Below, one piece after another: positions 1 through 62,299 of a DNA stretch of 64,000 nucleotides; the stretch's first letter is position 1; each line of letters begins with the position of its first letter. The DNA comes from Phymorhynchus buccinoides. Its lineage: Eukaryota > Mollusca > Gastropoda > Neogastropoda > Raphitomidae. The position numbers and the translations under genes were made by a program. Location of the stretch: contig CM065686.1 of NCBI GenBank assembly GCA_017654935.2, positions 27,412,591-27,476,590 on the forward strand, given 5' to 3'. The notes under the pieces are model-generated. The model was not told where the DNA came from and did no database searches. It saw nothing but the letters and a program-made list of their open reading frames with translations.

Positions 1-201
1 TCCTGGAACAAACTTCCTCTTTCCCTCCGTCAACGACCGACCCTCTCTGCTTTCAAATCTAACCTCAAAACCCACCTGTTCCCCACCTGTTCATGGAAGC
101 TCCGCTCTCTTTCTCTTCTCTCTCTTGCCTTTAGGTCTGTTTCTGCTATATTCCATTTATATCATGCGTGTGTATTTGCTTTGTATTGCATTTTTGTTTG
201 A
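1..201 (+). pseudogene. LINE ORF2 C-terminal fragment (CR1/L2-like)
   Basis: Frame 1 is open from the first base to a TGA at 199-201. It begins SWNKLPLSLRQRPTLSAF and continues with FKSNLKTHLF. This W-N-x-L-P ... F-K-x-x-L-K-T-H-L-F signature is the extreme C-terminal tail of reverse transcriptases of CR1/L2/RTE-like non-LTR retrotransposons. The rest of the element lies left of the window or was lost by 5' truncation. Downstream, AGCGCCGTATAAAATACTG (220-238) followed by a (TGG)n run resembles the LINE 3' UTR and microsatellite-like tail of the same group. The clade is not resolvable from about 65 residues. Confidence 0.6.
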
Positions 202-5285: not shown

Positions 5286-8200
5286 TTAGGCAGGGTCCAC
5301 GGAGCGGTTGATGATCTGGAGGTGGAGGGTCTGGGATGAGTTGGTGGAAGGCGCTGGGCGTCGTGGTGGTGGTGGTTGACATCTTGGTGGTAGGTCACAG
5401 GGGCGGAAGTCTTTTTTATTTTTATAAAACCATTCTTCCAGTCCTGAGACTAGTAGTGCTTCGGTCAGCAACCTCATTGGTGTGGTTCTGAGGGAGGGGT
5501 GAGGAAGCAGGAAATCTTGAAGTTTTAGTTTGTGCAGTTTACGGTACTGCCTGATGGAGTCCATGCTGTCTGGTAGGGCTGGGCAGTCGCTGAGGGCGTG
5601 GCTGAGGGAGGCTGGGGTGCCACATGGGCAGTTCAGGTTTAGGAGGACATGTCGGTGGAATCCTGTCCGTATTCTGCGGAGTATTTGATGGTGGCGTCGG
5701 GGGAGTCGTAGTCGATGTGAAGTTGTTGTTTTTTGTCTTGGGATGAAGATCCATCCATGTTCGGCGCAGCGCTCCTTCATGGCGTCATTTCTGATGGAGT
5801 TGCTGGCCTCTTTTAGTTTGCAGACGGTTTCTGCGAGGGACAGGCCAAGGTCGGTGTTTTTTCCGGTGTCGGGGGCGGTTTTTGCTGCTTTGTTGGCCAG
5901 TTCATTGCCGTGGATTCCGCAGTGTGAGGGGAGCCAGAATAGGGTTAGTTCTGTCCCTTTTTGTTGAATGTGGTGGGCCAGGGTCAGAGTTTCTTGTTGG
6001 AGTTCTTTTCGGTTGATTTTGCGTCCTGAAGCGAGGGCTTGGAGGGATGATTTAGAGTCGGTGAGGATCACAGCTGCCCTGGGTGGGGGATTTATGTTGT
6101 TGACGTAGTGGCAGGCTTGGAGGATGGCGTACATTTCTGCTGTGAAGATGCTGACACCACGGTTGAGGCTGTACTTTTCAGTAGCGTTGTGGTCGGGGAT
6201 GACCATGGCGCAGCCGGCTTTGCCGTCGTCTTGGATGGAGCCATCAGTGTAGATTTGGAGGTGGTTGGAGTAGCAGGTGTCTATCGTTTCTTTGGTGATG
6301 GTGGCCAGGTAGAGGGGGTTGTCCTTTTTGGTTGTCGTGGTCCCATAATCTGTGATGATTTTGGGTTTGAGGAGTTCCCAGGGGGGTAGCATGGTTGGCT
6401 GAGTTGGTATGATGTCATCGGGTTGGATGTTGGCCCTTTGCCAGATGGGTTTGGTGTGATTTTCCAATGGCGTCATTTTCTGGTGAAATTTTGGGTTGGT
6501 CCTTTTGAGGTGTCGTTGTCTGGCCATGTCTTTGGTATTCTGGTTGTGGAGGGCAGTTTTGACGTTGTTGTCGCTAGTTGTGACTCTGGCCTCGAAGTTG
6601 GCCCCTCGATTTAGGCATTCATCCCGGAGGGGAAGACAGCCAGCCTCTTGGTATACCAGGTCGTTGACAGCTGCGGGGTGGACGTCCATGGCGTGTTTTA
6701 AGGCGCAGAGTTCAGTTCTTTGTAGTAGTTTCCATTGGTTGTCGCTGGCGTTGAGAAGGACTTCATGCCCGTAGGTTAGACGGGAGTGGACAAGGGCGCC
6801 GGTGAGGTGGATTAGGCTTTCTGGAGTGGCCCAGGGTTCTTTCTTCAGGGTTTTGATGAGGCCGACAGCTCCCATGGCTTTTGATCTTTGTCGATTGATG
6901 TGACGGCTCCAGTCCAGGCCTTGGGTGATGGTGATTCCCAGGAATTTTGCCTCCTTGCTGGGTTTGATGGTGTGGTCTCCGAGTTTGATGCTGTAGTGGT
7001 TGCGTAGGTAGTTGGTTCTGGTGATAATTGGAATCCGTTTTCGGTCATGTAGGTTTTGATCCGGTTGATGAGGTTTTGGTACCATGCCATCTGATGAGAG
7101 TGGTGTGGCTCCGGAGACGTTTAGCCAGAGGGCAAGGTCGTCGGCGAAGAGTGAGATGGTTGGTACTTTGTTTGGACCGAAGTTTTCCGTCGTCTTTAGG
7201 ATGTCGTACAGCATGATGGTGAAGAGGGCTGGGGCAATAACGCTGCCTTGTGGTACACCCATGTCGAGGGTGTGGGTGGTGGAGAGGGAGGAGCCGACCT
7301 TTACTGCCATCTTTCTGGAGTCAAGGAAGGTGGCGATGAAGGCGTACATCCGTCCAGAGATGCCAATGGCGCTGAGTTTGTTGAGGAGTTTGGCGTGCCA
7401 CACTGTATCAAAGGCTTTTTATGTCAAAAAAGGTCGCCACAGTGGTTCTGTTCTTTTGTTTTGTCCATTTTTTGGTGTCCTCGAGTAGGTGGACGACGTG
7501 TTCGGTGCACTGCCTTCCCCGTCTGAAACCAGCTTGGCAGGTTGGGATCGTCTGGTTTTGGTCGAGGAAGAATTCCAGTCTCCGTTTGGTGATGTGTTCA
7601 TAGATTTTTTCCCAGGTGGGGCGTTAGGGCAATTGGACGGTAGCTGTCTGGTAGGTTGTGAGGTTTTCCGTCCTTGGGGATTGCAACAACAGCGGCAGTT
7701 TTCCAGGTGGTGGGGATGATGCCCTTTTCCCAGCATGTCTGGTAGAAGTTGGTAAGGACTTGTAGCATGGGCGGTGGGAGGTGTTGGATCATGTTGTAGG
7801 AGATCGGGTCCATGCCTGTTGCTTTGGTGACTGACTTTAGCCCAGTTATGATTGACTTTAGTTTGTCGATGGAGATGTCGTTGTTGATGGAGGCAGAGTT
7901 GTCTGGGGCTGGTGTGGTGAAGTTGGCCTCTGCCTCTCTGCGTTGTTGTTGTAGTTCTGGTGATAGATGCCTGGTTTGGCTGGCTTTGGCGAAGGTATCA
8001 GCAAGGGCTTCTGCCTTTTCTTTGGAGTCTTTTGTTAGTTGGCCGTTGATGAGGAGTTGTCGCTCAGGGTGGCGTCTTTTCTTGCGAAGTTGATTGACTT
8101 TTTTCCAGATTTTGGAGCCGTCCTGTGGGCCGCGGATTTCTTCTCTGCAGAATTGTTCCCAGTGGTCTTTCATGGCGGTTTCGGAGAGCTCCTTGAAGTC

Positions 8201-9442
8201 ATTTGAAGCTTCATGAAGGGCTTCTTGGTTGGGCTCTGATTGGTTCTTTTTGCAGTTACAGAGCAGGTGTTGTTTCTTTTGCTTGGCTTTTAAGCAGTCT
8301 TCAGTCCACCAGGCGTCGGAGTGTTGGTGAGGGAGGTTGTTGCTTGGCGTCTTCTTTGGAATGGTTGCATCGGCTGCCGTCAGGATCATCGTTCGGATGT
8401 TGCTGTAGTAGGTCTCGATGTCTGGGTGTGAGGGGTCGATGGTATTACAGGTCATGGACAGGTGACGGGCGAAGTTGTCCCAGTCGGCCTTGTGAAGTTG
8501 GTATTTTGGTTCCGTGTCAAAGTCAGTGGGGGTTGGGTCTGCGCTGTTCAGGACCAGATGCAGTGGGAGATGGTCCGATTGAAGGTGGTCTGTGCCCGTT
8601 GTCTATTATGCATCGTGGTAGAGGTCCGGGGTGGTGAGGGTTAGGTCGATGGCTGTGTTGCGTTGACCAGGACTCTGTCCAATTCTGGTGAAGGATCCGT
8701 CATTCAGGATGGTCAGGTTTGAATCGGTGATGACTTCTGCAAGTTGTTGTTCTTGTTGGGGGGTTTGACCGGTGTCCCAGAGGGAGTGACTGCTGTTGAA
8801 GTCTCCCCCGACTATCCAGCTGCTGCCATCAGAGCCCAGGTCCTTCATCCAGGTTTGGTCGTTGGGTTGGTTGCAGCCATCTGGGAAGTAGAGGTTGAGG
8901 AGATGGATGTTCCTGTTTTTCGTGGGTATGGATACAGCACAGGAGTTGAAACGGCTGGCTGTTTGTGCTGCTGGGGAAGGAGCCATGTAGAAGTTTAGTC
9001 TGGTGTTGACGTAGGTGGCTGTCATCACTCGGTCGTTTTTAGTGGCTGAGTGGCGTAGAAGCCATCCAGTTTCGGGAGCTTTTTTGGGGCGACATTGAGA
9101 GATTGTAGCATGAGGACGTCAGTTGTGGGTCGGGAACGCAGATAGTCGGTGAGGTAGGGTAGGTTTGTGTTGATGCTCCTGCAGTTCCACTGCAGCACGG
9201 ATAGTTGATGGGGGCGTGATGTTCTATTTGTAGAAGCCATCCAGTTTCGGGAGCTCTTTTTTTGCGACATTGAGAGATTGTAGCATGAGGACATCAGTTG
9301 TGGGTCGGGAACGCAGATAGTCGGTGAGGTAGGGTAGGTTTGTGTTGATGCTCCTGCAGTTCCACTGCAGCACGGATAGTTGATGGGGGCGTAATGTTCT
9401 ATTTGTGTCTTCCATTTTGGGTTTCTTGGAAGATTTCTTCAT
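5286..9442 (-). pseudogene. LINE ORF2: endonuclease, reverse transcriptase, RNase H (broken)
   Basis: The endonuclease part (9442-8606) shows LSVLQWNCRSIN, IVGGDFNSSHSLWD and, past two stops, LQSDHLPL. The RT part (8455-7600, then 7403 onward) shows DSYRPIALTPHLGK, CQAGFRRGRQCTEH, DMGVPQGSVIAPALF and the catalytic SLFADDLALWL. RNase H follows with IYTDGSIQDDGKAG, TAEMYAILQAC, LTDSKSSLQAL and WLPSHCGIHGNELANKAAK, then a C-terminal CPCG-x8-H-x4-C motif. Breaks seen: a 175-bp duplication at the start, adjacent in-frame TAA TAG near 8603-8608, one extra A in an A run near 7605, and a frameshift near 7418 before KAFDTVWHAKL. The 5286-7403 stretch is an uninterrupted 705-codon frame. Codon use is GC-richer than the flanks. 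Confidence 0.85.
9055..9405. repeat. 175-bp tandem duplication in the LINE endonuclease start
   Basis: Bases 9055-9229 and 9230-9404 are near-identical copies, each beginning GTAGAAGCCATCCAG and encoding (minus strand) HQLSVLQWNCRSINTN through LPKLDGFY. 175 is not a multiple of 3, so the duplication shifts the frame. Confidence 0.9.
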
Positions 9443-10506
9443 GGGCAGGTTGCTCAGTGACGCCGTAGTCCCAGTTTGTTTTCATAATTGTCGGTGTAGG
9501 TGTGCCTCTTAGGTTGTGGTCCACAGTTTTCTTGGGAGTTCTTGGAATGGAGGTGTTGGTTGGTTTAGTCTTCGTTGTTGTTGGTGGCTGGTCCTTTTGA
9601 GGTGGTTGGTCTGGTTGGTTTGGCTGGTTCTTAAGCAATTTCTGTTTCAGGAGGACGTTTTCCTCGCGGAGGGAGTGGACTTCTTCCCTCAGTTCTCTCA
9701 GCTCCTGTGTCATGAGGGCGAGCTGGTCGGCAATGCGGTCGACCGGGGTCGAGCAGTTCTGATTGGTGTTTGAAGGCTGTGGGGCTGGTGTCTGGGAGTC
9801 TTAGGTTGGTTCCTGGGTGATCGTGGGCTGGTTGTTTCTGGTTTGGACGGCCCTGGGTCGCAGGTTTTGCTGGAGTTGTCCGGCATAGCTGGAAGGTGGC
9901 GATTTCCTCCATGGTGTTGGTGGTTGGGATTCGTTTTGGGTAGGTGGTAGGGCCATTTGTTGTTTGGAGAAGATGGTCTTGGCTTCTCTGATGGCAAGGG
10001 CCCGAGGCATATCAATCTCGGCTCGTAGGCGGTTTGCCAGGGCCAGCTGTTTCCTAGCTGGACACCCCATGTAGCTGGAGGAGTGTTGGCCCCTGCAGTT
10101 GGTGCATCTCCTAGCTGGACACCCCATGTAGCTGGAGGAGTGTTGGCCCCTGCAGTTGGTGCATCTCCTGGCTGGACACCCCATATTGTTGGAGGAGTGT
10201 TGGCCCCTGCAGTTGGTGCATCTCCTTTGGGTGGCAGTGCAGTCCTTGGGGGCGTGGCCTGGTTTACTGCAGACAGAGCAGTATGGTAATCAGGCTCGGC
10301 AGTCTACGTTGAATGTGGCCTAGGCGGAAGATTATCTTGATGGCTTTTGATGGGCTGCCGTCTCTTAGGGTCAGCCTGGTAGCAGACCGGATGGGGCAGT
10401 CGATTCTTGTCTTTTCAAGAAATTCTTCATTGCTGACGTGTAGTGGAATGCCGCGGATGACTCCAGCTGTGGTTGGCACCGGGATGGTGCACTTGACGGT
10501 TGTGGT
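9399..10506 (-). pseudogene. LINE ORF1 (gag-like, zinc knuckles, coiled coil), 5'-truncated
   Basis: The N-terminal remnant (10506-10330) reads VIRGIPLHVSNEEFLEKTRI, typical of the RNA-binding part of I-group ORF1 proteins. It is followed by zinc knuckles: CSVCSKPGHAPKDC (C-x2-C-x4-H-x4-C) and CTNCRGQHSSNNMGC (C-x2-C-x3-H-x6-C), the second repeated. A middle portion is proline-rich. The C-terminus (9713-9399) has a short leucine-zipper-like coiled coil, LREEVHSLREENVLLKQKLL. Frames change several times between 10330 and 9713, so the product is not intact. The protein would normally package LINE RNA. Confidence 0.7.
10053..10223. repeat. three 57-bp copies of a zinc-knuckle-coding unit
   Basis: Three direct repeats start at 10053, 10110 and 10167 with CCTAGCTGGACACCCCAT or a variant. 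On the minus strand each encodes CTNCRGQHSSSYMGC plus PARR, one zinc knuckle and its linker. 57 bp is 19 codons, so the reading frame is kept. Confidence 0.9.
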
Positions 10507-14760: not shown

Positions 14761-15110
14761 TTCAATTAAAGAATTATAGAATTTGAACAGGTAAGTTTTA
14801 AGAGCTCTTTTGAAAGATTCGGCAAAATTGGAATGTCTCACTTCATAGGGGAGAGAATTCCAGACAGTTCATAAGGGAATTTCATAATGGAATACACAGT
14901 ATTATATAAACCATATTTAACCACCTAATCAAGTTTAATGGGAGTTGTAATTTTAGTCTGGTGGTAAAAAGTTTAAACAGCTTTTGTTTGTTTGTTGATG
15001 TTTTTTGTGTGTGTTTTTGCAAATGCTATCCTGAAAAGGGATTAAACAACTTCTGACAAATGGCCAGGTGCGAAAAAGTGGAGCGACTTCTTTCTTTTTT
15101 TGTCATTGAT
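14761..15110. other. non-coding, nothing recognised
   Basis: Unique AT-rich sequence between the microsatellites and the exon-copy array. Confidence 0.5.
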
Positions 15111-15113
15111 TAT

Positions 15114-15818
15114 CCTCAACAGATCCTGTGCTTCCGGGCATTGGTGTGTGAGCGTCAGCTGCTGGGTGTGTGCTACACAGTGGTGAAATAGTTAAACTAT
15201 TATGATTGTCATCCTCAACATATCCTGTGCTACAGGGCGTCGCTGAGCGAGCGTCAGCTGCTGGGTGTGTGCTACACAGTGGTGAAATAGTTAAACTATT
15301 ATAATTGTCATCTTCAACAGATCCTGTGCTACCGGGCATCGCTGAGCGAGCGTCAGCTGCTTGTTGTGTGCTACACACTGGTGAAAGAGTTCAGTTAAAC
15401 TATTATGATTGTCATCCTCAACAGATCCTGTGCTTCCGGGCGTCGTTGAGTGAGCGTTGGCTGCTGTGTGTGTGCTACACAGTGGTGAAAGAGTTAAGCT
15501 ATTATGATTGTCATCCTCAACAGATCCTGTGCTACCGGGCGTCGATGAGTGAGCGTCAGCTGCTGGGTGTGTGCTACACAGTGGTGAAAGTTAAACTATT
15601 ATGATTGTCATCCTCAACAGATCCTGTGCTACTGGGCGTCGTTGAGCGAGCATCAGCTGCTGGGCGTGTGCTACACAGTGGTGAAATAGTTCAGTTAAAC
15701 TATTATGATTGTCATCCTCAACAGATTTTGTGCTACCGGGCGTCGTTGAGCGAGCATCAGCTGCTGGGCGTGTGCTACACAGTGGTGAAAGAGTTCAGTT
15801 AAACTATTATGATTGTCA
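15114..15818 (+). repeat. seven tandem partial copies of the adenylyl cyclase exon at 15829
   Basis: Seven head-to-tail units of 97-104 bp begin at about 15114, 15212, 15311, 15415, 15514, 15611 and 15715. Each has a polypyrimidine/acceptor-like TCCTCAACAG (CAT in unit 2), then about 60 bp homologous to the first part of the true exon (ILCYRASLSERQLLGVCYT in unit 2). It then leaves homology at GTGGTGAAA and runs through an AT-rich intronic spacer. The eighth unit is the true exon, which instead continues GTGATGGTGATCCTG. Most copies meet an in-frame stop soon after VVK, so none could substitute for the exon. Confidence 0.9.
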
Positions 15819-15828
15819 TCCTCAACAG

Positions 15829-16107
15829 ATTTTGTGCTACCGGGCGCCGTTGAGCGAGCGTCAGCTGCTGGGCGTGTGCTACACTGTGATGGTGATCCTG
15901 CTGGTGATGGTGCTGACGCTGACGCTGGACAGCCGGCCCCACGATGCCTTCAGCGGGGCCTGGAGCACCCTGTTCTTCATCTACCTGATCTTTGCCTTCC
16001 TCCCCGTGCGCATGCACCTAGCCCTGGCCAGCGGGGCTGTGTTGTCCCTGGTGCAGCTGGCTGGGGCTGTCGGGTTTAGCTACTCCCAGCCCTACATTGC
16101 CAAACAG
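15829..16107 (+). CDS. adenylyl cyclase exon A (first membrane domain)
   Basis: 93 codons, phase 0 at both ends, between acceptor CTCAACAG and donor CAG|GTGACC. It encodes the second half of the first six-helix membrane cassette of a class III membrane adenylyl cyclase: a hydrophobic helix VMVILLVMVLTLTL, then WSTLFFIYLIFAFLPVRMHL with the F-L-P-V-R-M motif of vertebrate AC5/AC6, then ALASGAVLSLVQLAGAV. The enzyme converts ATP to cAMP at the inner face of the plasma membrane. Earlier exons (N-terminus, first helices) are not found in the window. Exon GC content is far above the flanking intron. The first ~60 bp are tandemly copied upstream. Subtype is uncertain: AC5/6-like by motif, AC1/AC8 not excluded. 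Confidence 0.85.
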
Positions 16108-17371: not shown

Positions 17372-17521
17372 GTTGTGGCCAACCTGTTTGTGTACCTGTG
17401 TGCCAACCTGGCGGGGGTGTTCACCCACTACCCTTCCGAGATGGCCCAGAGGCAGGCCTTCCTGGAGACCCGCAAGTGCATTGAGACCCGCCTGACCATT
17501 CAGAGAGAGAACCTGCAGCAG
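17372..17521 (+). CDS. adenylyl cyclase exon B (TM6 and signalling helix)
   Basis: 50 codons, phase 0 on both sides: acceptor TGATTTCAG, donor CAG|GTGAAA. It encodes VVANLFVYLCANLAGVF, the last transmembrane helix of cassette 1. This is followed by THYPSEMAQRQAFLETRKCI and ETRLTIQRENLQQ, the amphipathic helix linking the membrane domain to the catalytic core. The T-H-Y-P-x-E and Q-R-Q-A-F-x-E-T-R elements are shared with AC5/AC6; V-V-A-N-L-F-x-x-L-C is also close to AC8. The reading frame continues from exon A (..AKQ|VVAN) and into exon C (..LQQ|ERLLL). Confidence 0.9.
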
Positions 17522-20580: not shown

Positions 20581-20702
20581 GAGAGGCTGCTGCTGTCTGT
20601 ACTGCCCAGTCACGTGGCCGTAGAAATGAAAAAAGACTTGTCCAAGAAAGCGGAGGAGTCCATGTTTCACAAGATCTACATCCAAGGCTACACCAACGTC
20701 AG
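20581..20702 (+). CDS. adenylyl cyclase exon C (entry to C1a)
   Basis: 122 bp, starting in phase 0 after TTGTTTTCAG and ending with two bases of a split codon, AG|GTCAGT. It encodes [20 protein letters not shown] then [28 protein letters not shown] and M-F-H-K-I-Y-I-Q are conserved just before the catalytic domain in AC5/AC6 and AC1. The split codon AG+C restores the serine of N-V-S-I-L-F-A-D across the 12.8-kb intron. Confidence 0.92.
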
Positions 20703-33515: not shown

Positions 33516-33755
33516 CATCCTGTTTGCGGACATCTGCGGGTTCACCTCCCTCTCGTCCAACTGCACGGCCCAGGATCTGGTGCTGATGCTGAACGAGCTA
33601 TTTGCCCGCTTCGACAACCTGGCTGCGCAGAACCACTGCCTGCGCATCAAGATTCTGGGCGACTGCTACTACTGTGTCTCGGGCCTGCCCGACCCCCGCT
33701 CAGACCACGCCCACTGCTGTGTGGAGATGGGGCTGGATATGATTGATGCCATTGC
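33516..33755 (+). CDS. adenylyl cyclase exon D (C1a catalytic core)
   Basis: 240 bp: acceptor TCCTTTTCAG, donor GC|GTGAGT. With one base completing the serine codon and two bases beginning an alanine codon, the frame is exact. It encodes [20 protein letters not shown], the first metal-binding aspartate (F-A-D-I) of class III cyclases. It continues with [20 protein letters not shown] and [20 protein letters not shown], holding the second metal-binding aspartate (G-D-C-Y-Y-C), then [15 protein letters not shown]. Both catalytic aspartates of C1 are present, so the domain is expected to be active when paired with C2. The residue between I and G in F-A-D-I-x-G-F is cysteine, where E, V or K is commoner. 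Confidence 0.96.
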
Positions 33756-38699: not shown

Positions 38700-38858
38700 G
38701 CTGGTGAGGGATGTGACCACAACGGATGTGAACATGAGGGTGGGGATCCACACGGGGCACGTGCTCTGCGGGGTGCTGGGGCTGCGGAAGTGGCAGTTTG
38801 ACGTCTGGTCCAACGACGTGACGCTGGCTAACATCATGGAGGCTGGGGGCCTTCCGGG
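38700..38858 (+). CDS. adenylyl cyclase exon E (C1a, nucleotide site)
   Basis: 159 bp between TTCCACCAG and GG|GTAGGT. One base completes GCG (Ala) from exon D and two bases start the next Gly. It encodes [20 protein letters not shown] then [20 protein letters not shown] and [19 protein letters not shown]-x-[22 protein letters not shown] and M-E-A-G-G are the highly conserved C1a signature; W-S-N-D-V-T matches AC1/AC5/AC6 rather than AC8 (W-S-W-D-V). I-M-E-A-G-G replaces the commoner H-M-E-A-G-G. Degraded copies lie at 39052, 46206 and 46337. Confidence 0.96.
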
Positions 38859-45356: not shown

Positions 45357-46205
45357 CGCTAATCGATTGTATACAATTTAATTTGGTATGACAAAACATC
45401 ACTAATATTTTGCTCTAAAATATGTATATAGCTGCTACTAAATCAAAAGACAAGGCCTGGTATTTGTTAAGGTTGTTATAATTACGTGAAGTTAGATAAT
45501 AGAATAAGCAGTAAACTGATATTTCCAATTGTTCACTTCTGATTGAATTGGTAATGAAAAGAAATTTTGAAAAATAAGATTTATGTCATTCAAATCTCAA
45601 GAGCGAATTACAAATATTGTAGTTTGATGAAGACTATTTATTCCTTGAGTGATAAACTGCAAAATCTGATTTTATAAACACACTCGATGTGTTTTGCAAA
45701 AAGGTCATCACCAAAGGTCACGCGAACCCAGAAGGTCGCCGGAAAGCTAGGCTAACACGCACTGTGCACGTGATCAGCTAAAAGACGCTACTCGGATACT
45801 GAAAAGTTCACACTAAAAACGATTAATCTCCACTTACGATGATTGCATCCACGTCTCCTTTGGTCAATTATATAACAAAGCACACGTAGCTATGCGCCTA
45901 TTCAATCTCTGTACTGTCGATAGTATTTTAAACACTAAATCAGGATTTGAATTTGCCGCAAACACAACAAAGAATCACACCATCACAAAAACCATGGAAC
46001 TAGAGGCAAAGGGAGGGGAGGAAAAATTGGTTTGGCTGCGGTGGTGGTTCACTGGGAAAGAAACAGCCGAGTGCAAGAGGGAAAGAGAGCATGCAACTAA
46101 ATGTGAAGAGCTGGACGGAACTCGACTGCCATGCTGTGTAGGTTTATAAAGTGTTGGTAGGGATTTGAACAGGGTGTTTGTCTTATGAGACACAGGGGTT
46201 TCAGC

Positions 46206-46253
46206 AAGTGGTAGTTTGATGTCTGGTTCAACGATGTGACACTGGCTCACATT
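46206..46253 (+). pseudogene. relic copy 2 of cyclase exon E
   Basis: Reads KW*FDVWFNDVTLAHI; the asterisk is TAG in place of the CAG codon for Gln. Nucleotide identity to exon E is high over the 48 bp. Confidence 0.8.
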
Positions 46254-46336
46254 AATTTATGGTTTATAAAGTATGGATGTGTGGTGCAAATATGGATTTG
46301 AACAAAATGTTTGTCTTATGGGGCACAGGGTTTTGC

Positions 46337-46392
46337 AAGTGGCAGTTTGACATCTGGTTTAATGTCATGATTGAGGCTGGTGACCTGCCTGG
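46337..46392 (+). pseudogene. relic copy 3 of cyclase exon E
   Basis: Reads KWQFDIWFN, then a 7-codon deletion, then VMIEAGDLPG, ending GG|GTAGGT, the same donor as true exon E. It has no stop. Copies 2 and 3 are 131 bp apart and share the flanking text TTTATAAAGT...GGATTTGAACA. Confidence 0.8.
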
Positions 46393-47260
46393 GTAGGTTT
46401 ATAATGTCTTTTTATTATACACGAGTGTAGCACGCATGAACTTAAGATTCCAGGAGGAAAAAAGTTCATATCCAATGAAGCTCTCCGTTCTACTAGTAGG
46501 CGGGATAATAATTTCCGTTAGTTTTACAAGAAAGAAGACAGCCACAAGAAGAGATTGAAAAAAATGCTGTACTAGAGATAGAGAGAGAGAGAGAGAGGGA
46601 GGGAGGGAGAGCATAATTAGAAAATTGTACATCACAATAATCAAGTTATCATTCCCTCTCTTCCCCTATGGGCTGCCACTACAGGATTGGGGAACTACGC
46701 CCCGCGTTGTTTTCCCATGAGGTGGCCACATAGGACAAAGCAAAACTCTGATCTCCTGTATATAAAAAAAAGTCCACTAGTTTGCAAATCAGCTGGGGGT
46801 CAATATGTATTATTGTGTTCCTTTATTCATTTATTATTTATTTCTTAAGAACATCTACGTAGCACTTATCCTTTAAGCTGTAAGTGCTTTACAATTTCAC
46901 TAAAATGCTAAAACATTAAAACCAAACCCTTACATATATGCACAGACATAATGCCCTTACACCCCCACCCCCTCCCCCATCCCTCATATTCTTACACGCG
47001 CACACTCCAATACCCAGAAAGATGAACTATTAGTGTAGTAAAACGTGACATGACAAAGCATTGTAAAATGTGCACAATTGGTTGAAATTAATTTACATCA
47101 AATTATATACTTGTACCGATGAACACACACTTGCACTGCTGGATGCAGACAGGCATGCACGTACCCCCACCCCCACCCATATCATTATCACACACACATA
47201 TCACACACACACACACACATATCACACACACACACAGACACACGCTTATTCTTTAACCCT

Positions 47261-51965: not shown

Positions 51966-53310
51966 TTGGTACTTGGTTGTCTGTAAAAAGCAGACTTGAC
52001 TGCTGTTGTCTGTAAAAAGCAGGCTGGCTGCTGTTGTCTGTAAAAAGCAGGCTGACTGCTGTTGTCTGTAAAAAGCAGGCTGACTGCTGTTGTCTGTAAA
52101 AAGCAGGCTGACTGCTGTTGTCTGTAAAAAGCAGGCTGGCTGCTGTTGTCTGTAAAAAGCAGGCTGACTGCTGTTGTCTGTAAAAAGCAGGCTGACTGCT
52201 GTTTGTAAAAAGCAGGCTGGCAGCTGTTGTCCATAAAAAGCAGACTGACTGCTGTTGTCTGTAAAAGCAGGTTGGCAGCTGTTGTCCATAAAAAGCAGGC
52301 TGTCTGTACAAGGTCGGCTGGTTGATGGTGTATGTACAAGGTCGGCTGGTTGATGGTGTATGTACAAGGTCAGCTGGTTGATGGTGTATGTACAAGGTTG
52401 GCTGGTTGATGGTGGCTGTACAGGGTCGGCTGGTTGATAGTGTATGTACAAGGTCAGCTGGTTGATGGTGTATGTACAAGGTTGGCTGGTTGATGGTGTA
52501 TGTACAAGGTCGGCTGGTTGATGATGTATGTACAAGGTCGGCTGGTTGATGGTGGATGTACAAGGTCGGCTGGTTGATGGTGTATGTACAAGGTCGGCTG
52601 GTTGATGGTGGCTGTACAAGGTCGGCTGGTTGATGATGTATGTACAAGGTCGGCTGGTTGATGATGTATGTACAAGGTAGGCTGGTTGATGGTGGCTGTA
52701 CAAGGTCGGCTGGTTGATGATGTATGTACAAGGTCGGCTGGTTGATGGTGTATGTACAAGGTCAGCTGGTTGATGGTGTATGTACAAGGTCGGCTGGTTG
52801 ATGGTGTATGTACAAGGTCGGCTGGTTGATGATGTATGTACAAGGTCAGCTGGTTGATGTTGTACAAGGTCGGCTGGTTGATGGTGGCACAAGGTCAGCT
52901 GGTTGATGATGTATGTACAAGGTAGGCTGGTTGATGTTGCATGTACAAGGTCAGCTGGTTGATGATGTATGTACAAGGTCGGCTGGTTGATGTATGTACA
53001 AGGTCGGCTGGTTGATGATGTATGTACAAGGTAGGCTGGTTGATGGTGTATGTACAAGGTCGGCTGGTTGATGGTGTATGTGCAAGGTCGGCTGGTTGAT
53101 GGTGTATGTACAAGGTCGGCTGGTTGATGATGTATGTACAAGGTCAGCTGGTTGATGATGTATGTACAAGGTAGGCTGGTTGATGGTGTATGTACAAGGT
53201 CAGCTGGTTGATGGTGTATGTACAAGGTCGGCTGGTTGATGGTGTATGTACAAGGTCAGCTGGTTGATGTCCGTACAAGCTTGGCTGATTGATGTTTTTT
53301 TGTACAAGGC
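51966..53310. repeat. 28-bp minisatellite, two related arrays
   Basis: Array 1 (51966-52310) repeats a unit of the form GTCTGTAAAAAGCAGGCTGR about 12 times. Array 2 (52310-53310) repeats GTATGTACAAGGTCGGCTGG with TTGATGGT about 35 times. Consensus units of both arrays align at about 20 of 28 positions, so they are one family. The array ends 270 bp before the cyclase exon at 53580. Occasional 24-26-bp units break the register. Confidence 0.95.
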
Positions 53311-53579
53311 CAGCTGGTTGACAGTGTCTGATTTTGTTTTAAAAAATGTATATTATTATTATTATTACCATCTTTTTATGAACAAGGCTCATCTATTTTT
53401 TCAATCATTTTGATAAAGAAAAAAGGAAGTAGCACCTTGCCATCCCAAAAGTACAGCAGACTGACAATCGGCCAAATGTCTGCTTTCTCTTTCGAGTAAT
53501 CTGTCTACATTTATGCTGGCTGCAGCTTGAATGTCAATGAAAAGACACAGCTTACAACTGTGGTTTGCTTTGCTTTCAG

Positions 53580-53715
53580 ACGAGTGCACATCACGAATGA
53601 AACTTTGAACTGTTTGAACGGAGACTACGAGGTCGAGCCGGGCAACGGAGGGGAGCGCAACGCCTACCTCAGAGACCACAACATTCAGACTTATCTCATC
53701 AAATCCGATGTCAAG
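53580..53715 (+). CDS. adenylyl cyclase exon F (C1a end)
   Basis: 136 bp: acceptor TGCTTTCAG, donor AAG|GTACCC. The first base completes the Gly codon of L-P-G. It encodes [20 protein letters not shown], then [20 protein letters not shown] and KSDVK. R-V-H-I-T and [19 protein letters not shown] are the end of C1a and are nearly as in AC5/AC6; the H-N-I-x-T-Y-L-I ending also resembles AC8 and AC1. It completes a full C1a domain from exon D to F. Frame ends in phase 0. Confidence 0.96.
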
Positions 53716-55818
53716 GTACCCCCACTTTGTGGAATTCCTTTATTTGATTTTGTTGTGTAAGTCAAGTGTTGTGTTATGATAGTTATGTCTGTGATAGTTT
53801 TGCTAGTAAATTTGTGTATGCTTGTGTGCGTGTGTATGTGACTTGTATACATGCGTTTGAGTTAGTACGCGGAAGGGAAACAGTAAATGGATAATATTTT
53901 TTACACCTTGAATTCTTATCACTGCTACTGTTTTTGTTTTTTCTTGGAGTGTGACTAGTATTGTCGGCATTTGGAGGCTTTGCACCGAGGAAGAGACATG
54001 GTCTTGAAATATTTGCAATTTTAATAAATGTTTTAACAGTTATTTCCATTTGTTGTGTTTTCTTTATTTTTTCTGCTATATATTATATATTATAGGTATG
54101 AAAAATTTCAGTTTACTGCTGGCACCGTTAGTAAAGAAAAACTGAAATTTTTCATACCTATTACATCCCTTTGGATACTATTTCAGTTGCCGACCCTCTC
54201 TGGTCGTGTCGCTTATTTTTTCATATTTTAAATTTTGGAACATTCTTATGTTCACACTTTTACTTAAGATTTTTATCATTTCTAATTTAAGAGTGCTGGT
54301 TTGGTTTTTTGGAGCCTTTTACCAATATACAGGAAGAGACATTCCATTTGTGGAAGTCTTCTTGTTGAGGGGAGAGTAGTTCCACCTTGGTAGGTTAAGA
54401 CCCCATCCAGTGCCGAGCTGATGAGACTCCCTAGAGTCGAAACAGCTGTCCTCGGCTGGGTTCTGCCACTGCCTCCCTAATAATGAGGAGAAACTAAGCT
54501 AGCACTCTTTATGTTTTTTAGAACATAGATCAAGATGCCAAGTTAGCATATAACTGGTTTTGGGTTTTAATTTCCTTTCAAAAACATAGGGACAAAAAGG
54601 TTTTAAACAATTTTCCTATATATATATGCATTCTATTAAGGATGTACTTATGTGCGTGTGTGCGTGCATGCAAACATGTGTGTGTGTGTGTTGGGCTGTG
54701 AGTGTATGTGTCAGTGTGTGTGCATGAGAGAGAAAAGAGAGAGAGAGAGAATGAATGAATTTTTTGCTTTTTAGCTACAAAGAGAGAGAGAGGGGGGGAG
54801 GAAAGAGAGAGAGAAAGAGAGTGCATGTATGTATAATACAAGTAAGTGTCTGCATATGTATGTAGGTATATGCAGGCTTATGAGTGAGTGTGTAATTGAG
54901 TGGAGAACATTGTAATAATGAAAACAGTAATTATATTGTTACTTTGTTTTAATTTTTTAATTTGTTACCTCATTTCTTTCCATCCTTCTAGTTCCTGCTT
55001 ATCCCATTTGTCCCCTTGTACTTTCTGATCTGAGGAACTCTTCTTTTTCTTTTTTTCTTTTACTCCATTCTTTCTATTTTACAGTGAACTGGGGTTTTTT
55101 CATGAGATTTAACCTGAACGTGAAACTTATGTCAATATAAAAATTAAAAACCCACTGATAAAATAGCAATATTTCGTTTTATTTTTTTAACCTTCGACGG
55201 GCAAAGCACCAGGGCTACTTCTGAAACTCATGTGTGAGTGATTTGTTTTTAAAAATGTCTTCATAAGATTTAGCCTCGAGTGTGGCACACACAGCGTATT
55301 TTAATTTAGTCCAGGGAAGTCAATAAATTTCCGAAATATTACCAGCAACAACGTGGGCGTTCAGGTTTTTGTTCATCATCGTGTTATGATGTCATTTCCG
55401 AAACGGTAGACTGACTGACGGTTTTGTTTTTGTTTTGGTCTCTTGCTTTGCATTTGATTTAAAATGCTCTTGCTTGTCACTTAACTCTCTAGAGTGTACA
55501 GGAATTGTGCTGTTCATCCAGCTGCAAACGGGATACAGTTGTGAATTTTTTTGAGGGGAACCCTTTGATTGCCAGACATTTTTTAGCTAAAGCTGTCGGT
55601 CAAACTTTCCTGCATCTGAAGTATTGGGGACATTTATAAAACGGCCTGTCATACACTTAAGTGAACATGTTGTTTTCATGAATTTCCACTTCTGTTTCAC
55701 TTGCTTTTTTTAAATTATTTTTTTAGTTTAGTTTAGAATGATTTATTGATTTGTTTAATTGATGTAATAAAGTCTCTGATTTGTTGTTGCTGTAAAATCC
55801 TCCGTTTGTTTGAATCAG
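53716..55818 (+). other. adenylyl cyclase intron F
   Basis: GT-AG intron of 2.1 kb, AT-rich. It contains a strong hairpin at 54092-54161 and GA/TG microsatellite-like sequence at 54650-54830. Nothing else is recognised. Confidence 0.7.
54092..54161. repeat. 23-bp perfect inverted repeat, pre-miRNA-sized hairpin
   Basis: ATAGGTATGAAAAATTTCAG with TTT (54092-54114) is perfectly complementary to AAACTGAAATTTTTCATACC with TAT (54139-54161). The intervening 24 bases contain an inner pair, TTTACT (54112-54117) and AGTAAA (54130-54135), that competes with the last three pairs of the main stem. A transcript of the host intron would fold into a stem of about 25-29 pairs with a 12-24-base loop. It could be a short foldback MITE. 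Confidence 0.7.
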
Positions 55819-55910
55819 GTTCACACAGCCAGAGCCACAGAGACGCATGTCACCTGCAACCCCAGGGAAGAGAACAGGGAAGACAAAATGGCCCGCAACA
55901 TCCACAACAA
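55819..55910 (+). CDS. adenylyl cyclase exon G (C1b linker start)
   Basis: 92 bp from TTTGAATCAG to AA|GTATGT, starting in phase 0 and leaving two bases of a split codon. It encodes VHTARATETHVTCNPREENR then EDKMARNIHNN or K. This is the beginning of the poorly conserved C1b region between the first catalytic domain and the second membrane cassette. It has no strong family motif. The call rests on correct splice sites, exact frame joining to exon F and position. The sequence is polar and charged, as C1b linkers are. The next exon lies beyond the window. Confidence 0.7.
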
Positions 55911-56720
55911 GTATGTTCCAAGTTTTTATTAGCTATCATTAAGATTGCACTAAGTCATGAAGAAATCCTGACATCTCATCACCCTCGTTAAACATTACTG
56001 TATTTTCCGGTCTACAAAGCGCACCCCCTAATTTTATTAAATTTATGGAAAAAACAACGATAAAGCAGCATTCAGTGTCTAAGCCACAAGAGACTGAGAA
56101 AAAACCCAACGAACCTCAGCTGACGAGCGGACGAACAGTCGAAAGCCACGGAAACTTTGACGGCCCATGTTGCTTTCACACTCAAACTAAACAGCACAGA
56201 CCTAATCTTCATCATAACGGACCTACTAAATACTGGATTCTGCACAATGACACAACACAGCACAAAACATGACAAAGTAACGCACTGGCAGTTCATTTTC
56301 AGTCAAAGTTTGCACACACGAAACTTTCACTGCACATCCAACTCGGCTGGCATTAAGCAATCCGCAGATGTGTAATCACGGCAAGCACTAACGCGCCAGC
56401 TGTTTTCATTTATTGCATTTTGTTAGTTGTTTGCATTGCAAAAAGTTGTGATGGCGGCCGCCTAGCAGGCAGGGCTCCATGTCGCTCCTAAAGTTTGACT
56501 TGTTTACATGTGTTTAAGTGCCAGAGTGTGTGTTTGATTGTGTATTATTTGTGTGCCATGGATCCATCTTCACTTTTGTGGCTTTATGGAGCCCCCTTAC
56601 CACACAGGTTTTTCTTTCTGTTGTTTTTAATGACAGCAAGAAATTCTGTCCCAGTGTAGGCCGACATTTTCGCTGGCCGGCCCTCCATCCCTTCACGTTG
56701 GACCTAGGCATTCCTTCACA
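55911..56720 (+). other. start of adenylyl cyclase intron G
   Basis: After the donor GTATGT the intron continues to the end of the window. An isolated MITE-like end, TACTGTATTTTCCGGTCTAC followed by AAAGCGCACC (55996-56025), is of the same type as the element at 33880. No partner end was found. The rest to 56720 is unrecognised. Confidence 0.55.
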
Positions 56721-57804: not shown

Positions 57805-58037
57805 TATTTTCCAGCGTTCATGGCAAGACCTGGGCTACCAGCACTCTGACTTTTTTCTTCTATTGCACTCTAACTAGGTGGGTTTGTTCCATTTCCTCCT
57901 ATCATCGGACATAGGGTGTATCTGAGTCTCGATTGACTCAGTTTTTATAGTTCTCTCTTTTCTAGAACTTGAGATATAATTTTCTTTGTCGCGTCGCTCA
58001 CTCGCCGTGCTCCAGTGCACGCGCGCACGCACTCGAT

Positions 58038-60389
58038 ATGGCCACTTCTGGCTCAAACTCGAATGTTTCTCCTAAAGTTCAGGTTGACCCCGTGGTCCAT
58101 TCTCCTCTTCCTAGGGACGAAGCAGGCCGTTTCCGTTCTAAGGAATCTTCGGATAAATCCATCCGTTCAGTTTCTCACAAATCGAGGTCCAAGCACTCGA
58201 AGTCTCAGCGCTCTCATTCTCAGTCTTCACCGTGTGGGCCTCCTAGGCCCTCTTCGGTCCCAGTGTTGTCGGGTTTCACATTCTCACCACCGAAGTGTAA
58301 GGCCTCTCGGCCAGATTCGTCTTTAGGTCCGGTTGTGCCTTTCTGTTCAGACAGGAGGCCTCTCTCCACCAAGGCCACCACCTCTACCCGGGCTTCGACT
58401 TCAACTTCGTGGGATAAGTCGCAGCCGCGCATGTCTGTCGCCCCGAGTGGCAAGTTTGCACTCGGGGGCCCGCCTAGTCTCCCCACCCCTTTCGAGGGAG
58501 GGCGAAGGAGGTCCCCTTCCGACCATAGGTCGAGGTCTTACGACTGGGGCCTCGGGCAGACATCCCGGTGTCTCGAAGGGAACTCGAGCCCGGAAGGCCG
58601 TAGGCCTCTCGACACCTCCCCGGCCGGGGAGCCCGAGGCCTACCGGCTAACACCCCCTCGTCGTCGGAAAGTCTCCGACGGCGTGAAGGGTGCCTCTCAT
58701 GGACGCTTCGCCCTGGCCGCGGGCCTCTGTCCGAGAGGTTCTCCCGGTGATCCCCCCAATGGTGGGGACACCGGTCGAGTCTATTCCAGGCCTGGAGGCC
58801 CTACACCTCGGCTCCGGATGGACCCGGAGCCGGTGGACGAAGGCCTCCCCGCCAGTGCAGCCTATCGCCGTTCGGGCCACCGTAGCCCCCGGTCGGCCGA
58901 CCGTGGTGGCAAGCGGCCCCGCTCGGCCTCTCCGTCTCCCTCGGGCCTCCCCCACCGGGCCTCCCTCAGGCCCGGGCCTCCCTCGGTAGGAGGCCTCGGG
59001 GGCCATGGCCTAGTAGGCCGCGGCCTCCCCGGCACTCCAGGCCGCGGACAGGATGGGCCTCCCCCGGCGGGTCACCGGGGAGGCCTCGGCCTCCCTGGCT
59101 CCCCGGGCCGCGGGCAGGATGGAGCCCTCTCCCCACAGTCTTCCGTTGGCGAACCAGATCTAGGCCTCTCTCGGCCGGGTTCACCCATGAACCACGGATC
59201 CTCGGAGGCTTCTTTGTCTCCGACACGTTCTCCTCCGGCATTTGACGAACGTCTTCTCAAAGCCATCAGGGAATCTTTTCGCAATCTTCCTCCTCCAGCT
59301 TCACCCGTCGACCCTCCAGTTGTGCGGGACTCTTCCAACCAGGCCCTCCTGGACGTGATCGGCGGGGCGTGCCCGGATGTGGTCCGCCTCTCCGCTCCCG
59401 TCTCGGCCTCGGCCACAGGCCAGTCGGCTGGCTCTTTCCAGCAAGGGAAAGACCATCTTTTCCTTCAGCCTCCCTCCTGCCTCCAGGAGTCTATTCTCCG
59501 GGCGGAGGAATCGTTGCGTACAGGAAGGCTGATGGACGACAGGCGCTTCGCTCAAGGCCACTCTGTGCGCAGTCGCGAAGAGTCTTCGTCCTCCGGCTCT
59601 TTCTTGGTTCCCCAGTTCCGGACGGTTCTGGGTCTCCATGACGACTATCTCCCTTTCGCCCGTTTCTCAAAACCCTCGGGGGTAGAGAGTGACAGACTCA
59701 AGTGTTCGGAAGGATGTCACTCTTTCACCCTCAAGGCCTCCTCCTTCAGGACCCTCGAAGTAGCTCTTTCGGACGCTCTCAAAGGCTGCGGGGTCGCGAG
59801 TTCTCTCGCTCAAACCGCTTCGGACTCCTTGGGGAGCTCTGCTCCCTCTCGGTCCCCGATGGACTTTCGCTTGTTCGAGCAAGTCGACGAACCGGCTGTG
59901 GGAGTCTCTCTCGCCGCGCTCGGTGAGGCTCTCCAGAGTCTTACGGATGTCCTCGCCTCCCTCAAGGTCCAAACCTCCGCGATCGCAAGGGACAGCTTTC
60001 TCGCGAAGGCAAAAACCCTCTCGGCAAGGGAGAAAGAGCAACTCCGTTCCCTTCCTCTTCCCCTTTCGGGCCTCTTCGGGGAGGAAGCTCTCGGCTCGGT
60101 GATCAAGCTGTCTTCGGAGCGTAAGGCTCAGGACGGCCACGAGGCCATGTTGGCTCTGCTCGTCAAGCAGGCCAGGCAGAGCTCGGAATCGCACTCTGCT
60201 CGGTTCAGGCCAGGGGGTCGGTCCCTGGAGCGCAGAAAGCGCTCAATCTTCCCGAGGACTCAGGACTCCAAGTCCTCTCAGTACGTGGCTAGGCACACGG
60301 GAGGTCACCGTCCTTACCGCCCTCGCAACCCCTCTACGAGGGGCTCTTCCCGACCGGCCGGCGGGAAGCCGCAACAGTCTTTTCGGTAG
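58038..60389 (+). CDS. DIRS ORF1 (gag-like protein, 783 aa)
   Basis: ATG at 58038 (MATSGSNSNVSPKVQVDPVV) is chosen over the in-frame ATG at 57969 because sequence before it is not gag-like; the upstream one cannot be excluded. The N-terminal 150 residues are Ser/Arg/Pro-rich (SRSKHSKSQRSHSQSS). Residues of about 170-390 are Gly/Pro/Arg-rich, with a doubled GLPGTPGRGQDG / GLPGSPGRGQDG motif. The C-terminal half is more ordered, with FDERLLKAIRESFRNLPPPA, FRTVLGLHDDYLPFARFS and LSAREKEQLRSLPLPLSGLF, and ends in a basic tail (SLERRKRS ... RPYRPRNPSTRGSSRP). DIRS ORF1 proteins are presumed nucleocapsid proteins that bind element RNA. No zinc knuckle is visible. GC content is about 60 percent or more, far above the host introns. 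Confidence 0.8.
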   Translation: MATSGSNSNVSPKVQVDPVVHSPLPRDEAGRFRSKESSDKSIRSVSHKSRSKHSKSQRSHSQSSPCGPPRPSSVPVLSGFTFSPPKCKASRPDSSLGPVVPFCSDRRPLSTKATTSTRASTSTSWDKSQPRMSVAPSGKFALGGPPSLPTPFEGGRRRSPSDHRSRSYDWGLGQTSRCLEGNSSPEGRRPLDTSPAGEPEAYRLTPPRRRKVSDGVKGASHGRFALAAGLCPRGSPGDPPNGGDTGRVYSRPGGPTPRLRMDPEPVDEGLPASAAYRRSGHRSPRSADRGGKRPRSASPSPSGLPHRASLRPGPPSVGGLGGHGLVGRGLPGTPGRGQDGPPPAGHRGGLGLPGSPGRGQDGALSPQSSVGEPDLGLSRPGSPMNHGSSEASLSPTRSPPAFDERLLKAIRESFRNLPPPASPVDPPVVRDSSNQALLDVIGGACPDVVRLSAPVSASATGQSAGSFQQGKDHLFLQPPSCLQESILRAEESLRTGRLMDDRRFAQGHSVRSREESSSSGSFLVPQFRTVLGLHDDYLPFARFSKPSGVESDRLKCSEGCHSFTLKASSFRTLEVALSDALKGCGVASSLAQTASDSLGSSAPSRSPMDFRLFEQVDEPAVGVSLAALGEALQSLTDVLASLKVQTSAIARDSFLAKAKTLSAREKEQLRSLPLPLSGLFGEEALGSVIKLSSERKAQDGHEAMLALLVKQARQSSESHSARFRPGGRSLERRKRSIFPRTQDSKSSQYVARHTGGHRPYRPRNPSTRGSSRPAGGKPQQSFR

Positions 60390-62299
60390 AGCCCGCGCGC
60401 TGCCGGGAACCGGCAGGCGTCGTGGCGTCCAGCGTGGATGCCCTGTCTCAGGCGTATCCCGCTTGGCGCTCGCTTGTCGACAACGCCTGGATTCTCGGCG
60501 TCGTGCGGGAAGGGTATCGGTTCCCCTTCGAGCTAGAACCGCCACTCTCGGCAAAACCGATCGCTTTCTCCCCCCCGGCAGACCCAGTACGGTTGGCGAT
60601 ACTGCAACAGGAAGTCGACTCTCTGGTCGTCAAGGGCGCAGTCTCCCGGGTCCCTCTTCCAGGACCCGGTTTCTACTCGCGTCTCTTCACGGTCACGAAG
60701 AAGTCGGGCGGTTACCGCCCTGTTCTGGATCTGTCTCCGCTGAACAAGTTTCTTCACAAAACCAGGTTCAAGATGGAAACTCCGTCCACGGTCCGTTCGT
60801 TCATACGTCCAGGGGACTGGGCAACCTCAGTGGACTTGCAAGACGCTTACTTCCATCTGTCCATCCACCCTTCCCGCAGAAAGTTTCTCCGCTTCGTCTG
60901 GAAGGGAGAAACTTTCCAATTCAACGCCCTACCGTTCGGTCTCTCTCTGGCCCCCTGGATCTTCACCAAGGTGACCAGAGAGCTGGCCGCTCTGGCCCGC
61001 TCGCAGGGGCTGCGGTTAAAGGTCTTTCTCGACGACTGGCTTTTACTCGCATCCTCTCGCGCTCTCTCGCTCGACCACACCCGAGTTCTTGCGGACCTCT
61101 CGCTTCGGCTGGGGTTCCGCATCAACTCCAAGAAGTCAGATCTGACCCCCTCTCAGACCTTCACCTATCTCGGCATGTGCTTCGACACCGTGAACTTTAC
61201 GGTCACGGCGTCCGAGGGCAGGCTTTCAGCCATTGTCAGTCTCGTGGCCGACCTCTCAGAGGCGAAGTCGGCCACGTTTCGCCGACTCCTCAGCCTTTTG
61301 GGCCTCATGGAGTCGGTAGCGGAGCTCCTCCCGTTGGGCAGAGTGCGCAAAAGGCCACTGCAACGGGAGTTGACGGCGCGCATCCTGGACCCATCCCACT
61401 TCGACCAGCAGGTCGCGTTGGGGGATTGGTTTCGGAAGGCGGTCATGGCTTGGACCGACCCGTGTTGGATGAACAGCATGGTCCCAATCAGTCGTTTGGG
61501 TTCCCAGCTGTTCATCCACACGGATGCCTCCCTAAGCGGGTGGGGAGCCCATATGGAGACGGAAGAAACCTCGGGCGTGTGGACAGAGCCACAAACACGT
61601 CTCCATATCAACTGGCTCGAGTTGGAAGCCATCCGGCTGGCCCTGATCCACTTTCTCCCCGCGATTCGGGGAAAGGAGGTCACGGTCTGCGGAGACAACT
61701 CGACCAGCTTGGCGTACCTCCGTCGTCAGGGGGGCACCCGCTCAGCCTCCCTGTCTCTGACGGCGGAGGACACTCTGGTTTGGGCCGACAGCCACGGGAT
61801 CTCCCTGTCAGTGGAGTTTGTCCCGGGAAAACTCAATGTTCTGGCGGACCAACTCAGCCGCTCTCATCAGGTGCTTCAAACGGAGTGGACGATTGCGCAT
61901 CGGGCCTTGACCCCAGTCTGGAGACGCTGGGGCAAGCCCATGGTGGATCTCTTTGCCACGAGGTACAGCAATCGTCTACCTCTGTACGTGTCCCCAGTCA
62001 GGGACCCTCAGGCCTTGGCCCGCAACGCCTTTGCGATGTCTTGGTCGGGGATGTCGGTTTACGCCTACCCCCCGACTGCGTTGCTCACGAAAGTCTTGGC
62101 CAAGTGCCTCCTGGAAAGACCAGACATGATCCTCGTCGCGCCCCATTGGCCGACTCAACACTGGTTTCCAGAACTGCTGGCTCTGGCCAGGGACGGCCCC
62201 CTCATGCTGGGGCTCACACCCAAGACCCTCCTCCAGCCAAGGAGCGGTCTAGGCCATCCAAACCCTTTCAGGCTAAACCTGGCCGCATCGAAACTATAA
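60293..62299 (+). CDS. DIRS reverse transcriptase / RNase H (ORF2)
   Basis: Open from just after a TAG at 60290 to 62299, in the -1 frame relative to ORF1 and overlapping it by 97 bp. RT motifs in order: YSRLFTVTKKSGGYRPVLDL, ATSVDLQDAYFHLSIHPSRR (motif A aspartate), FNALPFGLSLAPWIFTKVTR (motif B), VFLDDWLLLAS (motif C F-L-D-D at 61025) and FTYLGMCFDT. RNase H: IHTDASLSGWGAHM, NWLELEAIRLAL, VCGDNSTSLAYL and LNVLADQLSRS, giving D-E-D-D. The C-terminal MVDLFATRYSNRLPLYVSPV with AFAMSWSGMSVYAYPPTALL is typical of DIRS pol downstream of RNase H. There is no ATG before motif A (first Met is in FKMETPS), so translation probably depends on ORF1 (frameshift) or another non-standard route. Confidence 0.93.
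   Translation, partial: AHGRSPSLPPSQPLYEGLFPTGRREAATVFSVEPARCREPAGVVASSVDALSQAYPAWRSLVDNAWILGVVREGYRFPFELEPPLSAKPIAFSPPADPVRLAILQQEVDSLVVKGAVSRVPLPGPGFYSRLFTVTKKSGGYRPVLDLSPLNKFLHKTRFKMETPSTVRSFIRPGDWATSVDLQDAYFHLSIHPSRRKFLRFVWKGETFQFNALPFGLSLAPWIFTKVTRELAALARSQGLRLKVFLDDWLLLASSRALSLDHTRVLADLSLRLGFRINSKKSDLTPSQTFTYLGMCFDTVNFTVTASEGRLSAIVSLVADLSEAKSATFRRLLSLLGLMESVAELLPLGRVRKRPLQRELTARILDPSHFDQQVALGDWFRKAVMAWTDPCWMNSMVPISRLGSQLFIHTDASLSGWGAHMETEETSGVWTEPQTRLHINWLELEAIRLALIHFLPAIRGKEVTVCGDNSTSLAYLRRQGGTRSASLSLTAEDTLVWADSHGISLSVEFVPGKLNVLADQLSRSHQVLQTEWTIAHRALTPVWRRWGKPMVDLFATRYSNRLPLYVSPVRDPQALARNAFAMSWSGMSVYAYPPTALLTKVLAKCLLERPDMILVAPHWPTQHWFPELLALARDGPLMLGLTPKTLLQPRSGLGHPNPFRLNLAASKL

Follow-up and report, generated by a model that had tools for sequence, protein, structure and literature searches.

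The 64-kb stretch of Phymorhynchus buccinoides DNA analysed here, which we call the window, carries exons of an adenylate cyclase gene, and directly 5' of one of them, exon A, lie seven tandem units that each repeat the start of that exon together with its splice acceptor (Table 1). Exon A matches residues 286-377 of ADCY5 (chain 8sl3_A, E 1.6e-11) and exon D matches the ADCY5 C1 domain (8sl3, E 1.2e-43), so that the gene, matched over both its membrane and C1 regions, is of the ADCY5/6 type. Exons A to F join into an open model of 362 codons with GT..AG borders. Among the best 120 of 7922 protein matches, the 362-residue model is 89% identical to an adenylate cyclase type 5-like protein of Babylonia areolata and 90% identical to a protein of Nucella lapillus, and none of the 120 matches listed exceeds 90% identity. 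In a second protein search none of the 120 matches listed, of 1190, exceeds 80%; no match in either listing is therefore taken to be the snail's own protein. The exon that precedes exon A was not found in the window upstream of 15120 by tblastn with Babylonia, Nucella, Haliotis and Patella proteins (E 1e-3). An Rfam search of the 64 kb at the gathering cutoffs and a tRNA search of the same stretch each returned zero matches.

Table 1. Features of the cyclase locus; positions are those of the window, row starts of copies 1-7 are the starts of their acceptor motifs, and unit lengths are the spacings of those motifs.
Feature	Position	Strand	Unit length (bp)	Exon-like part	Codons before stop, if joined to upstream phase-0 exon	Remarks
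Pyrimidine run	15087..15101	+				15 nt, cttctttcttttttt; -36 to -22 of copy 1
Whole array	15112..15828	+	97-104			seven tandem units 5' of exon A; TRF, BLASTN, acceptor spacing
Copy 1	15113..15182	+	99	15123-15182	22	acceptor tcctcaacag; most distant copy from exon A (11/60 differences)
Copy 2	15212..15281	+	99	15222-15281	22	acceptor broken (caacat)
Copy 3	15311..15380	+	104	15321-15380	25	acceptor tcttcaacag
Copy 4	15415..15484	+	99	15425-15484	59	open through copy 5
Copy 5	15514..15583	+	97	15524-15583	26	
Copy 6	15611..15680	+	104	15621-15680	22	
Copy 7	15715..15784	+	104	15725-15784	25	nearest exon A (3/60 differences)
Last spacer	15785..15828	+				holds the real acceptor; final 20 bases identical to copies 4-7
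Exon A	15829..16107	+				real exon; 93 codons, phase 0-0; ADCY5/6-like membrane segment; donor CAG/GTGACC
Exon B	17372..17521	+				same cyclase gene
Exon C	20581..20702	+				same cyclase gene
Exon D	33516..33755	+				C1 catalytic domain
Exon E	38700..38858	+				same cyclase gene
Exon F	53580..53715	+				same cyclase gene
Probable further exon	55792..55911	+				tblastn match, Babylonia residues 577-613; borders approximate

Structure of the array and its surroundings

TRF detects the repeat at 15112-15888 with a period of 104, 7.7 copies and 90% matches (score 1152), and BLASTN with exon A plus 40-base flanks as the query finds all seven copies at E values of 1.5e-16 to 3.6e-34, which rules out chance. 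Each unit is made of exactly 60 nt (20 codons) of the start of exon A and an intron-like spacer of 37-44 nt, which runs from GTGAAA to the next exon-like part and ends in the acceptor; exon A's own acceptor motif begins at 15819. Homology with exon A stops at +60 to +63, where exon A has ACTGTGATGGTGATC and most copies have ACAGTGGTGAAA. The arrangement described in the initial annotation, seven tandem copies of an exon start and its acceptor ahead of the real exon, is thus borne out by TRF, BLASTN and the spacing of 97-104, and its coordinates hold apart from the left edge, which lies at about 15112 and not at 15114. The units lie head to tail and are longer than about 10 bp (TRF), and the exon-intron boundary falls inside the unit, with the AG lost in copy 2. 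In these respects the array is a boundary-straddling minisatellite, the border of exon A on which that assignment depends being backed by protein relatives.

The decoy copies differ pairwise at 3 to 10 of the 60 exon positions, or 3 to 11 if the real exon is included, and in a tree of the array units the five support values run from 0.27 to 0.90 and are mostly weak. TRF also gives a period of 300, equal to three units, with a score of 1243. This hints at a strict three-unit higher-order repeat, but the mean differences, 9.0 at lag 3 against 7.43 at lag 1, do not, and we do not claim one.

What did the founding duplication look like? A clear match between the flank of copy 1 and the spacer is confined to the last 11 bases, ATCCTCAACAG; farther upstream the flank does no better than chance, 222 of 500 shuffled sequences scoring at least as high. 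BLASTN, with a gap, extends the copy 1 alignment 23 bases upstream of the exon part, which makes the left edge of the array less definite than the shuffles imply. A stretch of about 33 bases, gtgaaagagttcagttaaactattatgattgtc, is absent both before copy 1 and within exon A, and a search for its source across the 64 kb found none (best outside match 11 bases, E 0.29). Most of the spacer therefore seems confined between the units, and a simple clean duplication does not yield it. Since gtgaaagagttcagttaaactattatgattgtc is found in neither place, these bases may have been added at the founding junction, or matching sequence before copy 1 may have been lost later.

A duplication of this sort is not unexpected here, since the window holds six arrays with a period of at least 50, the cyclase-exon array included, for ~2.2 kb in total (TRF), and since exon E also has decayed partial copies. 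The latter, at 46195-46252 and 46328-46399, are degenerate versions of that exon's 3' part; they lie ~7.3 kb downstream and belong to a tandem unit of ~133 bp. An in-frame TAG interrupts the first, and the second keeps the GGGTAGGTT donor region. Their local scores are 37.5 and 36.5, and the best of 300 shuffles, which were of the second stretch only, is 19.

Several other features lie in the window. Two 28-bp minisatellites of 11.9 and 36.9 copies occupy 51976-53321 and end ~260 bp before exon F (TRF). On the minus strand, 5286-9118 holds retrotransposon remains: four frames of that strand were examined at 5286-10289, and two of them have matches to reverse transcriptase, RNase H and endonuclease. 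Near them TRF finds two tandem repeats, one of 175 bp at 9055-9406, its units 96% alike, and another of 57 bp at 10052-10226. A large GC-rich stretch on the plus strand, at 57966-63363, has a layout that looks DIRS-like, and its frame at 60293-62299 has a reverse transcriptase match; for the 807-residue frame that precedes this one, a protein search gave no scored relative.

Splice signals of the copies

Splice sites were scored with matrices hand-set from general consensus values and untrained, so that the scores are rough. As initially annotated, the acceptor is kept in six of the seven copies, copy 2 having CAACAT in place of an AG-ending site. Copy 1 has an acceptor score of 6.24, copies 4-7 and the real exon score 4.86, and copy 3 scores 4.51; the other five real acceptors of the gene score 4.97 to 13.78. 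Apart from the pyrimidine run ahead of copy 1, the longest such run at the array acceptors, the real one included, is 5. The last 20 intron bases are identical in copies 4-7 and exon A, and local acceptor strength consequently cannot explain the use of exon A. The AG of the real acceptor is separated by 28 bases from the AG that precedes it, both within the same spacer; by the AG-exclusion idea (PMC1431707), each unit would then need its own branch point. RNA accessibility was considered as a reason for the choice of the real site, with a mean unpaired probability of 0.52 for the real site against 0.21-0.46 for the copies, and was set aside, the difference being small and coming from a single sequence without a control.

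The 60 nt of each copy are followed directly by a GT, a feature that the initial annotation did not mention. The junction reads GTG/GTGAAA, or CTG/GTGAAA in copy 3, and GTGAAA is also the start of the intron after real exon B. These donor-like sites score 4.28 (copy 3, 5.28), and 4.28 lies at the 90.7th percentile of 4184 GTs. The weakest real donors, those of exons D (4.31) and F (4.52), lie close to this value; for A, B, C and E the scores range from 7.38 to 8.73.

What would splicing to a copy produce? In the frame fixed by protein relatives, inclusion of any of the seven copies, even copy 2 with no AG of its own, would bring in an early stop, as expected of a poison or decoy exon. The claim that the copies usually run into a stop within a few codons needs correction: in this frame stops follow all seven, after 22 to 59 codons, copy 4 being the longest. 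With stops so placed, use of a decoy acceptor would truncate the cyclase, as had been proposed.

Divergence of the copies and the order of events

The coding part of the copies had been thought well conserved, and that conservation perhaps a sign either of function or of homogenisation. When copies 2-7 and the real exon are compared with one another, 137 of 1260 pairwise positions (10.9%) differ in the exon parts and 33 of 822 (4.0%) in the spacers, these counts being derived from the computed fractions 0.109 and 0.040. The better conserved part is thus the spacer and not the exon part, although by variable columns (17 of 60 in the exon part versus 4 of 30 in the spacer) the difference is not significant (Fisher P 0.19). 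Decay of CpG might help to explain why the exon parts diverge more: variation is seen in 6 of 12 CpG-linked columns and in 13 of 48 others, which is suggestive only.

Are the copies constrained as coding sequence? There are 22 distinct changes from the array consensus. Three, all synonymous, are common to decoys and real exon, two are confined to the real exon (one synonymous), and the remaining 17 are confined to decoys, where 11 are nonsynonymous, one is a nominal stop step and five are synonymous. The neutral expectation, computed with transitions weighted fourfold, is 33% synonymous, and the probability of five or more synonymous changes among 17 is 0.72. The nominal stop step sits in copy 4, where an adjacent change turns the codon into Trp. 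The 60 nt of every copy are free of indels and of in-frame stops; the probability of seeing no stop step in 17 neutral events is 0.54. By distinct events no coding constraint is detected on the decoy copies, and the argument from conservation to function finds no support, as the decoy-only changes look unconstrained and the spacer is more alike. A cruder copy-by-copy count, which tallies shared changes repeatedly, gives 13 synonymous and 14 nonsynonymous changes, a nonsynonymous deficit under equal rates (P 0.016) but none with transitions only (P 0.43).

Codon 7 bears on the order of events. It encodes Ser in copies 2-7, Leu in copy 1 and Pro in the real exon (15847-15849). In 12 relatives compared by eye, the residue is Ser in six (Babylonia, Nucella, Haliotis, Patella, Saccostrea and Mercenaria), Thr in three, and Met, Leu and Ala in one each, with Pro in none; two further relatives, P0012 and P0014, have Phe. 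Four of the five gastropods named have Ser, and Gigantopelta has Ala. Because copies 2-7 hold the Ser common to those four, the duplication probably predates the change to Pro in exon A. At this codon no copy has taken over the residue of the present exon, and so recent homogenisation to it finds no support there. The Pro of exon A may have become fixed, may be polymorphic or may stem from an error in sequencing.

Interpretation of the array

What best accounts for the seven copies? Our preferred reading, which we hold at a probability of roughly 0.73, is that the array is a neutral minisatellite straddling the intron-exon boundary. It would have begun with tandem duplication of part of an exon, and unequal exchange or slippage would later have spread the units. 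Splicing would go mainly to the last acceptor, because no other acceptor of the array leads into a complete exon body that ends at a good donor. The decoys would be mostly ignored, their rare use leading to an early stop and probably to decay of the transcript, and the array would have no selected function. In favor of neutrality we count the spacers being more alike than the exon parts, and the five synonymous changes among the 17 confined to decoys. Against it we count the survival of six of the seven AGs, the lack of any indel or stop within the 60 nt and the copy-by-copy P of 0.016. A further point against it comes from the rough matrix, by which the decoys are not obviously weak: the highest acceptor score in the array belongs to copy 1, and copies 4-7 score the same as exon A.

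A rival reading, which we regard as unlikely, is that the copies are functional splicing decoys. Here the extra acceptors would recruit splicing factors, the long intron upstream would be removed more slowly or by another route, and cyclase output would fall through early stops and transcript decay, by poison splicing or intron retention. Six acceptors are intact, and over their final 20 bases four of these match the real one exactly; the sole long pyrimidine run of the array stands ahead of copy 1. Decoy exons that act in this manner are described for OGT and other human genes (PMC12017769, in part). By distinct events, however, the exon parts lack clear constraint, even if the cruder count leans the other way, and copy 2 has lost its AG. 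Moreover the OGT decoy, in the available part of the same paper, is a cassette exon with both splice sites, whereas the donor-like sites of the array are weak by the rough matrix. A bolder proposal is that the seven decoys compete with the real exon, the copy number of the array setting the amount of full-length cyclase, as a splicing rheostat on cAMP signalling. The original branch point and pyrimidine tract would then have been left before decoy 1, and the real exon would have obtained a makeshift acceptor. We consider such a rheostat improbable.

Might each copy instead be a symmetric micro-exon, of 60 nt and phase 0-0, adding 20 residues to the membrane segment and keeping the frame? Every copy has an exon part of exactly 60 nt without a stop in frame 0, and the GTGAAA that follows these parts, as it follows exon B, scores close to the real donors of exons D and F. 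But the introns between adjacent copies would be 37-44 nt, and introns of that length are too short for ordinary animal splicing. The changes follow a neutral pattern, copy 2 has no AG, and the insert would probably disrupt a membrane hairpin; we give this reading very little credence. It is also most doubtful that the copies are what is left of complete alternative exons that once stood here in tandem and were later cut down. Exon E likewise has degenerate copies, and animals are known to duplicate exons in tandem and to choose one at the exclusion of the others (PMC9013439, in part), but each of the seven copies stops at +60 and the spacer is common to them all, which argues for one partial unit multiplied and not for independent decay. 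Finally, tandem arrays are prone to assembly errors, but an assembly artefact or stacking of alleles is a slight prospect here, because stutter would give identical copies and these differ from each other in their exon positions and in unit length (97, 99 and 104).

On the reading as a neutral minisatellite, the kind of structure is already known, as tandem repeats at exon-intron boundaries (PMC2812944, in part) and as a donor minisatellite in the human gene IFI6 (PMC4526556, in part). The IFI6 (6-16) minisatellite (Turri et al. 1995, as cited in the available part of PMC4526556) resembles the present array: in both, a tandem repeat on the border of an exon has given a single gene several copies of a splice site. 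It differs in that IFI6 repeats donors, and its downstream units are used in mRNA, whereas the units here are acceptors with 60 nt of exon. Internal tandem repeats of human segmental-duplication genes are likewise minisatellites at exon-intron boundaries that alter gene structure or splicing; as given in the available part of PMC2812944, their mean unit is 30 bp in four copies, they occur in recent paralogs and they have transcript evidence, against ~100 bp in seven copies in a mollusc gene here. The OGT decoy exon, which promotes intron retention, would be a parallel if the acceptors of the array recruit the spliceosome without productive use, but it is a cassette exon of tested function (PMC12017769, in part). 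Mutually exclusive exons (PMC9013439, in part) share with it the placing of exon copies in tandem beside the original. Such exons are whole, with both splice sites, the same frame and the capacity to substitute for one another, whereas the copies here are the first 60 of 279 nt, end in stops and cannot replace exon A. Intron creation by tandem duplication within coding sequence also involves a splice signal; that process makes a new intron, whereas the present array multiplies, within an intron, an acceptor that was already there. Among the papers listed in a small literature search, judged by title and the start of the abstract, none shows an acceptor-side array, and we claim no priority.

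Spliced-read aligners are known to be misled by tandem repeats, and gene catalogues through them; with short reads they can place false introns between neighbouring repeats (PMC10632439, in part). The array illustrates how little homology to an exon start, even with an intact AG, says about whether an alternative exon works. Five acceptors, those of copies 4-7 and the real one, have identical last 20 bases, and that of copy 1 scores higher by the rough matrix; if the eighth acceptor is chosen all the same, the choice would have to come not from the acceptor but from the exon body, from pairing with the donor or from the order of intron removal. Should the cell still pick the eighth acceptor, this locus would be a clean natural test of exon definition.
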